Source of the DNA: Firmicutes bacterium ADurb.Bin153
GTDB taxonomy: Bacteria; Bacillota; DTU025; MWDF01
Direction of reading: 5' to 3'
Length of the DNA stretch: 64,000 bases
NCBI GenBank assembly: GCA_002070415.1
Contig: MWDF01000009.1
Span: forward strand, 1-64,000
Part shown: positions 20,855-26,245 of the stretch, in pieces
Layout of the letters: the number at the start of each line of letters is the position of its first letter
Numbering within the stretch: the first letter of the stretch is position 1
The notes under the pieces: model-generated
The model's input: only the letters and a program-made list of their open reading frames with translations
Database searches by the model: none
What the model was told of the DNA's origin: nothing
Program-made: the position numbers and the translations under genes

Positions 20855-22501
20855 CTATTTGCCGAGGTATTTCACTATCTCGGTGTTGACGGCAGGATTT
20901 GTCCAGTCCTTCCACCATGTCGGGAACGAGGTCTGCCTCCAGTACTTGGCCATCAGCTCGTCTCCCAGCTTTAACCAGTCGTTGAACCAGCCCACCGACG
21001 TGTTGTAGCAATACTCGCTGAGCATCGACACCGCGCCCTTAGGATCGGCGGCGTACATCTTGGCCGCTATGTCCTGCAACTCGGCCATCTGCTTGTAGAC
21101 GTTCGCCATCTTGGGCTCCCTCAGGGCGTTGACGTACTTCATGGCATCGGCGTAGTTGAGGCCGATTATCGCCTGCACGCCGGTGTTGATCCACCAGCCG
21201 GAATCGCGCCTGTAGATCTCGTACCTGGAACCGACGCCGTACAGGTCGGGCAGCTTCTCCATAGCGGGGAACAGGGGTGTCAGGAAGCTGTGGCCGACCG
21301 AGCCGTAGCCGTACCACACGATGCCCCTGAACGGGGTCGGCAGCCACGACTTGATCTGGCTGACCTGCAAGTAGCAGGTCGCGGGGATTCCTATCGGCCT
21401 GGGCCTGCTGCCGAGTCCGTAGTTGTTGAGCGGGTCTCCGTACGGGCCTGCGAGAGGGCCTTTGGTCAGGTCGTACTGCGTCCCTTCGTAATGGTCGCCG
21501 GATATCTTCCATATGTCGTTAACCGAGAGCTTGAAGTCGGGCTTCACGCAGTACGGGTATTCGGGCGCGTTGTCGGGCAGCTTCAGGGAAGGCGCCACTA
21601 GGTCGAATACCCGCCATTCGCGCTTGTTATGGGCATTTACTCGGTTGGCGTAGATCTCCGACGCCCTGAAGGGCTTGCCGGAGTTGGGATCGTACCAACC
21701 GTTCTCGACTGCGTAGGAGATGAAGTTGGGCGAGGTTATTACCTCGTATGTGACCCCGTTCTCCACGGGGTTCCTGGGGTCGATGTTGAAGCGGTGGGTA
21801 TTGGCGCCCACCCAGATCATGTCGTCCGGCACGCGGGTGGCGACCCAGATCTTCGCCCCGAAGAACTCCATCGCCCACGTTTCCGTACCGTCGGTGATGT
21901 CCATGATCTCACCGCCCCCACCGGTCACGTTCCAGCCGTACTCGTTTATGAGATCCCCCATTATCATGACGGCCTCGCGTGAGGTCGTCGCGCGCTCAAG
22001 GGCTATGTCCTGCAGGTTCCAGCAGTCGATCATGCCTTCGTCGGTGTCGTACAGTTTCTTCCTCACTGCCTTGCCGTAGTCGTTGCTCTGGACGACTGAG
22101 GTGGTGGATTCGCCCATGGCCACACCGTTCTCGTTGATGAATGAGTACCTGGAGTGGAAATAGGTGTAGGTCTTCTTAGGCTGCGGGATATCCACGAGTA
22201 CCATGGCGCGTCCGTTCCTGTTCTTCGTGTAGTCCACGACCGGCCACTTGGAGAAGTCGATGTAGTCGTGCGAGTCGATCACTATCGGCCGGGTCTCGCC
22301 CTCCTTGTGCTCGGCGCCTTTCAGTATCCAGAGCCTGAAGTCGGCTACTCCGGAGTCGTCGTTGTGCGTGATGATCGCCGACCCGTCCACTGTGGCCTTG
22401 TTGCCTACCGCTATGATCGTGCATGCGTAGCTGGCCGTGGTAAGTGCCAGCAGCATGACGGCGACGGAGACGAGAACGATAAGGTTTCTGCGGATCCTCA
22501 T
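20855..22501 (-). CDS. Secreted C69 family dipeptidase, copy 2
   Basis: A 548-residue paralog of the convergent copy 1. The signal peptide (RRNLIVLVSVAVMLLALTT, SYA) is again followed immediately by the nucleophile in CTIIAVGNKATVDGS. The body carries THNDDS, GESTTSVVQSND and the repeated RRDSGWWINTGVQ C-terminal segment. The protein is probably periplasmic, hydrolysing dipeptides. It is the last gene of a leftward operon with a permease, a 57-residue membrane protein and a secreted deacylase, 78 bases after the deacylase. A hairpin lies in that gap, so part of its expression may depend on read-through. Confidence 0.9.
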   Translation of the reverse strand: MRIRRNLIVLVSVAVMLLALTTASYACTIIAVGNKATVDGSAIITHNDDSGVADFRLWILKGAEHKEGETRPIVIDSHDYIDFSKWPVVDYTKNRNGRAMVLVDIPQPKKTYTYFHSRYSFINENGVAMGESTTSVVQSNDYGKAVRKKLYDTDEGMIDCWNLQDIALERATTSREAVMIMGDLINEYGWNVTGGGGEIMDITDGTETWAMEFFGAKIWVATRVPDDMIWVGANTHRFNIDPRNPVENGVTYEVITSPNFISYAVENGWYDPNSGKPFRASEIYANRVNAHNKREWRVFDLVAPSLKLPDNAPEYPYCVKPDFKLSVNDIWKISGDHYEGTQYDLTKGPLAGPYGDPLNNYGLGSRPRPIGIPATCYLQVSQIKSWLPTPFRGIVWYGYGSVGHSFLTPLFPAMEKLPDLYGVGSRYEIYRRDSGWWINTGVQAIIGLNYADAMKYVNALREPKMANVYKQMAELQDIAAKMYAADPKGAVSMLSEYCYNTSVGWFNDWLKLGDELMAKYWRQTSFPTWWKDWTNPAVNTEIVKYLGK

Positions 22502-22539
22502 TTCTTACACCTCTCAAATAAGAATGGGTTCGCTATACG

Positions 22540-22573
22540 GAAAGAGAGGGCCCCCGTCCGGAAGGCCCTCTCT
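22540..22573 (-). terminator. Hairpin between deacylase and C69 copy 2
   Basis: Perfect 10-bp stem AGAGAGGGCC (22543-22552) / GGCCCTCTCT (22564-22573). On the minus strand it is followed by TTCCG, a poor T tract, so termination may be partial. Confidence 0.65.
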
Positions 22574-22579
22574 GATCCC

Positions 22580-25250: not shown

Positions 25251-25278
25251 AAAAAAGTACGCCCCGGCAGGGGCGTAC
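25251..25278 (-). terminator. Intra-operon terminator/attenuator before the permease
   Basis: Perfect 9-bp stem GTACGCCCC / GGGGCGTAC, loop of 4, then TTTTTT on the minus strand. It lies directly between the periplasmic protein gene and the permease start with no promoter between, so it probably lowers downstream expression rather than ending the operon. Confidence 0.85.
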
Positions 25279-25282
25279 TCGA

Positions 25283-25894
25283 TTACTTGGAAAACATGGC
25301 TGCGAAAAGTCCTGGGAGGTCTAGGATGCCGGTTTCGAAGTAGGTTAGCGGGACCTTGTTCTTGTCGGCGATCTTCTTGAACTTGCCGTCCGTATCGCCG
25401 TCCTTCCTTACGATGAAATAGTCGGCGAACGGCGCTATCGCATCGATGCTCTGCTCGTTTGCGCTGCCGGCAAGGCCTCTGTTGTCCTTTCCGTTCATGA
25501 GCAAGGCCACTATCTTGATCTTCAGCTTCTTGGCTTCCGCTACTACCTTGTTGAGGCGCGCGACCTCCTCGTCGATGGTTATGCCTGAAGCCCCGAGCCC
25601 CTTGGCGCTCGAGCTTATGGCGAAGATTATGGTCTTGTACTTCGCGATTTCGGAAGGCAGGGGCTCTGCGCTGTACCAGTAATTTGTCTCATAGATCATC
25701 ACGGCCTTGGATGCGGCCTGGAAGTTGATCATTGCGCGCGCGTTCTTGCCGTCGGGCCCCTGGCCCGCGTTGCTCAGAAGGCACGGGAACTCGAATTTGG
25801 GCGGTGTGGAACCTGTTACCGCAGCCGTCGCCACATTGGTGCCCAGCAGCAGCATCAGGCTTAGCAGAACGATTAGAACCGGGATCTTCTTCAT
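25283..25894 (-). CDS. Periplasmic DUF6305-like protein
   Basis: A 203-residue exported protein: the signal peptide (KKIPVLIVLLSLMLLLGTNVATA) precedes a single alpha/beta domain. Characteristic segments are PCLLSNAGQGPDGKN, YKTIIFAISSSAKGLGASGI, IKIVALLMNGKDNRG and DYFIVRKDGDTDGKF. From memory this resembles DUF6305, which is found mostly in Synergistota and related anaerobes and has no assigned function. As first gene of the operon, ahead of a permease, it may be the substrate-binding component. The strong promoter and a terminator after it would make it more abundant than the transporter, as expected for a binding protein. Confidence 0.7.
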   Translation of the reverse strand: MKKIPVLIVLLSLMLLLGTNVATAAVTGSTPPKFEFPCLLSNAGQGPDGKNARAMINFQAASKAVMIYETNYWYSAEPLPSEIAKYKTIIFAISSSAKGLGASGITIDEEVARLNKVVAEAKKLKIKIVALLMNGKDNRGLAGSANEQSIDAIAPFADYFIVRKDGDTDGKFKKIADKNKVPLTYFETGILDLPGLFAAMFSK

Positions 25895-26245
25895 GGATTT
25901 TCTCCTTTCGTTTAGACTACAATCTATGACGCCGGAGACGGCGTATTGTTTTCCTGAAAATGGTCTTTCCAAGTAAAATTATAGTTGTTACTTACCAAAG
26001 GACAACATAAATATCGGCTGTATATACGAACCTCACCTCCGCTTGCCTATGCATCCTCTGCCCACTGAAAAGCCACTCTGAAGACTTCTGTAAAGTCGAC
26101 CGGGCCCATGCGCCGGGGTTATGCATGTACTAATAAAATACAATAGTGACTTCCGGCACGCTTGGTTTCTTCAAGGGGGCCCCTACATCCTGCCTCACGT
26201 CGGTAAGTAACGAAATAGTGTATTATTGATTCTCGGAGGGTCACC
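25895..26245. other. Divergent intergenic region with promoter toward the transporter operon
   Basis: About 350 bases between the leftward DUF6305-like gene and rightward pgsB. It holds one hairpin (ACGCCG-gaga-CGGCGT, 25930-25945) and a good leftward promoter (25979-26006). A TACAAT near 26140 could serve pgsB but has no clear -35 box. I see no gene here. Confidence 0.55.
25979..26006 (-). promoter_or_regulatory. Promoter of the DUF6305-permease-peptidase operon
   Basis: On the minus strand TTGTCC (26001-26006), a 16-base spacer and a perfect TATAAT (25979-25984) lie 85 bases before the DUF6305-like start. The ACGCCG/CGGCGT hairpin lies in the leader. Confidence 0.7.

Follow-up and report, generated by a model that had tools for sequence, protein, structure and literature searches.

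The question raised by this locus is what a secreted DUF6305 protein, a permease, a very small membrane protein and two exported hydrolases do together. The window (the whole stretch of 64,000 nucleotides that was analysed) had been given an initial annotation in which these genes resembled a tripartite, TRAP-like uptake system with its own secreted hydrolases. Much of this picture stands, as the permease is always accompanied by the small protein and nearly always by DUF6305, and its predicted fold is closest to that of TRAP M-subunits; the proposed cargo does not. Taken together, the five genes have the appearance of an import system that has not been described before. It is found in four or more bacterial phyla, and the key to its function turns out to be the neighbouring genes pgsB-pgsC-pgsW. 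The operon probably serves to degrade poly-gamma-glutamate (PGA) and take it back up, in a cycle of which pgsBCW forms the adjoining synthesis half, by means of a secondary transporter with three components that resembles TRAP but is distinct from it.

Operon organisation and host

All five genes were confirmed on the minus strand (Table 1), in the order and place originally described, spanning 20855-25894 with intergenic gaps of about 10-80 bp. The same gene order was found in other phyla, which puts the operon far beyond chance. The promoter assigned to it is well placed, but its description as strong is not borne out, since the region has two promoter-like sites where 2.4 are expected by chance (consensus counting). 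The hairpin and U run at the other end may be the operon terminator, and no RNA element was found in a search of Rfam. The second C69 hydrolase, which converges on the operon, is a probable accessory, and tandem C69 genes are seen repeatedly in related operons.

Table 1. Features of the operon, of the adjoining poly-gamma-glutamate genes and of related loci
Feature	Position	Strand	Evidence or remark
Second exported C69 hydrolase	19033..20682	+	PF03577 E 8.7e-67; tail to tail with operon
Hairpin and U run	20802..20832	-	Just 3' of C69 stop; 10-bp hairpin; fold z -1.3 (modest)
Exported C69 Ntn-type dipeptidase	20855..22501	-	PF03577 E 2.3e-53
Exported M14/AstE-AspA-like zinc hydrolase	22580..23737	-	PF24827 E 2.5e-10
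Two-helix membrane protein, 57 aa	23751..23924	-	Directly downstream of permease; proposed small subunit
Permease	23945..25237	-	430 aa; predicted ion-transporter-superfamily fold, TRAP-M-like
DUF6305 protein	25283..25894	-	PF19823 E 5.8e-34; signal peptide
Promoter-like site TTGTCC-16-TATAAT	25978..26005	-	Upstream of DUF6305; plausible, unproven
pgsB (capB-type poly-gamma-glutamate synthase)	26246..27433	+	TIGR04012 369 bits, cut-off 223
pgsC (capC)	27430..27858	+	TIGR04011 124 bits, cut-off 96
pgsW, poly-gamma-glutamate system protein	27875..28960	+	TIGR04332 331 bits, cut-off 100
D-glutamate cyclase heading GGT-type operon	L030:4963-6081; L062:9030-10121; L151:7885-9021; L152:2797-3924; L153:7414-8568		

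The best permease matches come from metagenome-assembled genomes labelled Bacillota or Clostridia DTU025, followed by Thermotogota, Spirochaetota and Atribacterota. An assignment to the Synergistota is not supported by the labels of these closest genomes, and the genome itself is Bacillota-like. The organism has an Omp85 gene, indicating an outer membrane, and therefore probably possesses a true periplasm. Elsewhere in the window there is an arsenic/metal-type cluster (14083-18527) composed of an ArsP-like permease, a DUF2703 ferredoxin-like protein and an ACR3 arsenite efflux transporter.

Conservation of the gene set

The operon of five genes is genuine and strongly conserved. It was followed through 43 distinct permease loci of Bacillota, Thermotogota, Spirochaetota and Atribacterota, made up of 19 loci from genome contigs and regions added from other genomes. 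Nearly all sufficiently flanked loci among the 19 share the gene order, and the window genome itself has three further permease copies, each with M14 neighbours. The two-helix protein lies directly downstream of the permease in 43/43 loci, and an M14/AstE-AspA-like hydrolase is encoded on the same strand within 6 kb in all 43. Where at least 3 kb were available on both sides of the permease (n=27), it is accompanied, within the same distance and on the same strand, by DUF6305 in every locus, usually 20-110 bp upstream and in some loci 2-3.6 kb away, and by a secreted Ntn hydrolase, either C69 or gamma-glutamyltranspeptidase (GGT), in 25. The permease tree has two clades, GGT-type (17) and C69-type (26), and the type of hydrolase tracks the clade.

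The permease and its small neighbour

At E<0.1 the window permease matches nothing in Pfam or NCBIfam, its score against the DctM family (PF06808) being 8.7 bits with a cut-off of 23.8. DctM is matched by 11 of 15 permease relatives at E≤5 (best 3e-12), and the models matched by the relatives (DctM, DcuC and NhaC) all belong to the ion-transporter superfamily. A permease profile gave no match to PDB sequences. Among known structures, the AlphaFold2 model (pLDDT 87) most resembles those of TRAP M-subunits, with SiaQM (7qha_B, E 1.7e-8, TM 0.69) as best match and a TM of 0.72 to IseQM (9pym), followed by the stand-alone carriers VcINDY and YdaH. Judged from this model, the permease is of the TRAP-M/ion-transporter-superfamily fold class.

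The small protein is 49-57 aa long across the loci, with two hydrophobic stretches and a C-terminus that almost always carries a P-L-x-L-R-x-L-x-I-K-like motif. Some of its genes were missing from ORF lists and were recovered by translating the gap 3' of the permease; the recovered proteins match the profile at E 2e-7 or better, more than half of them having been outside the set from which it was built. This obligate neighbour of the permease is proposed to be a small transporter subunit.

The DUF6305 protein as a proposed receptor

The DUF6305 protein is modelled as a single alpha/beta domain (pLDDT 89). Compared with the PDB, the model gives no hit at E≤0.001, and its 50 best matches include no periplasmic binding protein; the profile search of the PDB returned only coiled-coil chance matches. 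That the binding protein is not DctP-like, as first noted, is therefore upheld, given its match to PF19823 instead and a single-domain model without a two-lobed fold. No mention of DUF6305 was found in the literature searched. Two relationships were considered and rejected. The best fold matches, to TesA-like SGNH hydrolases, are weak (E 1.5e-3, TM 0.32-0.38), and the loop with the nucleophilic serine of that family reads AGQGP in DUF6305; distant kinship with PgsW received a profile comparison probability of 0.24%.

DUF6305 also occurs apart from the permease in many Bacillota genomes, where it is a lipoprotein or membrane-anchored and heads genes for a multi-TM histidine kinase and a response regulator (L076-L079, L081, L082, L085, L089-L092, L100 and L101). 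These permease-free sets often adjoin a Dpp/Opp-type ABC transporter and are apparently an undescribed sensor system. Occurrence of DUF6305 without the permease had been named in advance as a finding that would speak against a tripartite transporter; such genes do exist, but their place beside a sensor kinase fits a receptor, so that the objection is only half sustained. With this company, DUF6305 looks like a general extracytoplasmic receptor. In two loci (L084 and L087) pgsB-pgsC-pgsW is followed by a DUF6305-M14 fusion, a histidine kinase and a response regulator, and then by DUF6305, permease, small protein, M14 and C69. The fusion, of DUF6305 with an AstE/AspA-type M14 domain, comes directly after the pgs genes (L084:8620-9828, L087:9360-10562). 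We infer that the DUF6305 domain can either signal through a kinase or supply a permease. When recurring cytosolic neighbours were looked for in general, the kinase/regulator pair and a D-glutamate cyclase were the only ones to emerge.

The same observations could be read differently, the permease being a stand-alone carrier of the ion-transporter superfamily and DUF6305 a sensor or hydrolase partner that transport does not need. The fold matches to VcINDY and YdaH, the histidine kinases and M14 fusions with which DUF6305 is associated, and its distance from the permease in some loci all agree with such an arrangement. It is nevertheless unlikely in view of the presence of DUF6305 in every well-flanked locus, usually just upstream of the permease, and of the TRAP M-subunits that head the list of fold matches.

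Association with poly-gamma-glutamate synthesis genes

The genes pgsB, pgsC and pgsW, which the initial annotation did not mention, are divergent from the operon and 350 bp away from it, and all three score above the curated NCBIfam cut-offs. In the phylum of the window, pgsW is found in 20/20 permease genomes compared with 22/300 overall (Fisher p 3e-29), and in Thermotogota in 16/18 compared with 16/101 (p 1e-16), both p values being partly inflated by shared ancestry. By coordinates, the permease lies within 8 kb of pgsW in 15 of the 20 permease genomes of the window's phylum. The linkage can be closer still, with pgsB-pgsC-pgsW-GGT-DUF6305-M14-permease-small protein all on one strand in L139 and further single-strand or abutting superoperons, from two phyla, in L137, L138, L142, L143 and L145. 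It should be mentioned that in G219 (L147), counted as having pgsW without the permease, M14 genes run into pgsB at the end of the contig. The permease was found in one of 149 sampled Spirochaetota genomes and pgsW in eight, so that pgsW is not dependent on the system. A literature search on PgsW yielded nothing useful.

An operon of the order D-glutamate cyclase-GGT-DUF6305-permease-small protein-M14 also occurs in three genera, one example being a paralogous locus in the window genome. The cyclase is enriched at the genome level (11/20 against 20/280, p 2e-7), mostly within one order, and its link is limited to the GGT-type systems of that order. Downstream of pgsW in the window (28947-29912) is a fusion of a heptaprenyl diphosphate synthase component I-like protein with NusG domain II, also a neighbour in L010 and L063.

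The secreted hydrolases

The M14 protein matches PF24827 (AstE/AspA; 40.6 bits, cut-off 25) as its only Pfam family, PF05908 (the PghP family) not being among its matches, and its best PDB sequence matches are DoeB structures. The zinc ligands and the Asn-Arg pair are invariant in 54/54 homologues; H83, E86, N177, R180 and H214 are each conserved in all 54, and E278 in 53, with one gap. The enzyme is proposed to be a gamma-glutamyl amide hydrolase, and other substrates are possible.

In the C69 protein Cys27 directly follows the end of the signal peptide (TTASYA) and would become N-terminal after processing. The NCBIfam equivalog cut-off is not reached (166 bits, cut-off 250). To our knowledge, C69 enzymes are known as dipeptidases and not as gamma-glutamyl hydrolases. 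In L024 (6747-7871) an M14 gene with an internal gap is linked to sequence for the C-terminal region of a C69 enzyme just before pgsB-pgsC-pgsW, which is either a real fusion or an assembly error. Two further exported C69 hydrolases form another, divergently encoded pair in the window (34231-35796 on the minus and 35943-37628 on the plus strand), far from any permease of the operon's family; after this pair come an M20-type peptidase and a DUF1576 membrane protein.

Cargo and proposed cycle

The cargo had been taken to be an N-acyl amino acid or a dipeptide product. Gamma-glutamyl compounds are indicated instead by the co-occurrence of permease and pgsW in genomes, by their physical linkage up to the level of superoperons, by the alternation of GGT in one permease clade with C69 in the other, by the fusions of DUF6305 to an AstE/AspA-type domain beside the pgs genes and by the D-glutamate cyclase that opens the GGT-type operon in three genera. 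In the cycle proposed here, PgsBCW would make and export a gamma-glutamyl polymer, and the exported M14 and C69 enzymes (GGT in sister systems) would break down gamma-glutamyl chains or peptides in the periplasm, releasing either glutamate, which would in part at least be the D form, or short gamma-glutamyl units. The one-domain DUF6305 receptor would bind the product and dock on the permease, beside which the obligate two-helix protein would take the place of DctQ in a physical complex, and the permease would move the product inward by an elevator-type, probably ion-coupled step. Imported D-glutamate could then be cyclised or racemised.

The system might, in another reading, scavenge gamma-glutamyl or ordinary peptides from the environment (peptidoglycan peptides or glutathione-like compounds) and not the cell's own PGA, the pgs link then reflecting a shared use of glutamate. 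Most permease genomes have several paralogous systems but one pgs locus, and some paralogs may therefore serve other substrates; C69 is moreover a broad dipeptidase family, and elsewhere DUF6305 adjoins Dpp/Opp-type peptide transporters. The near-perfect co-occurrence with pgsW and the single-strand pgsBCW superoperons of two phyla make scavenging a doubtful account of the system, at a level similar to that of the stand-alone carrier.

The N-acyl amino acid originally suggested, with M14 as a deacylase of the AspA/AstE/DoeB kind, appears quite improbable. The class of the M14 enzyme, with its PF24827 and DoeB matches, agrees with this cargo and cannot separate the two readings because gamma-Glu-Glu is itself an N-acyl glutamate. 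A pair of succinyl-CoA ligase-like (sucCD-like) genes that comes after M14 in one of the window genome's GGT-type paralogs (L028:3378-5394) is also in keeping with it, and may hint at another substrate for that paralog. The replacement of C69 by GGT in one of the two permease clades argues against it, and the pgsBCW linkage points to gamma-glutamyl amides. Very improbable, finally, is a permease that exports something tied to PGA synthesis (e.g., as anion counter-flow) with hydrolases whose role is confined to trimming polymer at the cell surface, since, although the tight linkage to the synthesis genes and the secretion of PGA-cutting enzymes by B. subtilis (PMC4497714) would suit it, a receptor with a TRAP-like permease fits uptake, a D-glutamate cyclase in the operon fits assimilation and sister systems are located away from pgs.

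If the PGA cycle is correct, PGA would be in these anaerobes not just a capsule or waste but an actively recycled polymer with a dedicated importer. A function would be gained for the uncharacterised DUF6305 and for a permease family without a Pfam model, together with a new receptor-dependent secondary-transport architecture having a very small membrane subunit, and the same receptor domain is suggested to feed a two-component system.

Comparison with known systems

The degradation of PGA in Bacillus (PgdS, GGT, CapD, PghP/PghL) likewise employs secreted or extracytoplasmic enzymes, among them a GGT-family Ntn hydrolase and a zinc enzyme of carboxypeptidase-like fold. At the N-terminal end of PGA, GGT releases glutamate; PghP, which hydrolyses PGA, is a zinc-dependent relative of carboxypeptidase A; and the ggt gene of B. 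subtilis is not linked to pgs (PMC4497714). The M14 enzyme described here differs in being AstE/AspA-like and not of PF05908, and a dedicated receptor-dependent importer for the Bacillus pathway was not found in the literature searched. With the AstE, AspA and DoeB amidohydrolases the M14 enzyme shares the zinc ligands and the Asn-Arg carboxylate-binding motif; it differs from these enzymes in being exported and in having a long insertion and an HEA motif, which is invariant.

The proposed transporter has in common with TRAP systems (DctPQM, SiaPQM; TC 2.A.56) a 12-helix-type permease with a TRAP-M fold, as modelled, a small membrane subunit, an extracytoplasmic receptor and a similar logic of gene neighbourhood. 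The machine would work like TRAP but lacks three of its features: the permease stays below the DctM profile cut-off, the small subunit has about two helices in 57 aa where the TRAP Q subunit (DctQ) has four, and the receptor is DUF6305 and not DctP, TAXI or any two-lobed protein. The three-gene logic of a large permease, a small membrane protein and a receptor is also that of TTT (TctABC; TC 2.A.80), from which the operon differs in that Pfam and NCBIfam searches found no TctA, TctB or TctC among its proteins. A literature search for a new tripartite transporter class returned nothing useful. More tentatively than for the cycle itself, it can be suggested that, next to TRAP and TTT, there is a third class of receptor-dependent secondary transporter, characterised by a one-domain receptor serving both permease and sensor kinase and by an obligate two-helix subunit, which together with pgsBCW would make up a complete cycle of PGA synthesis, sensing, hydrolysis and reuptake in several phyla.
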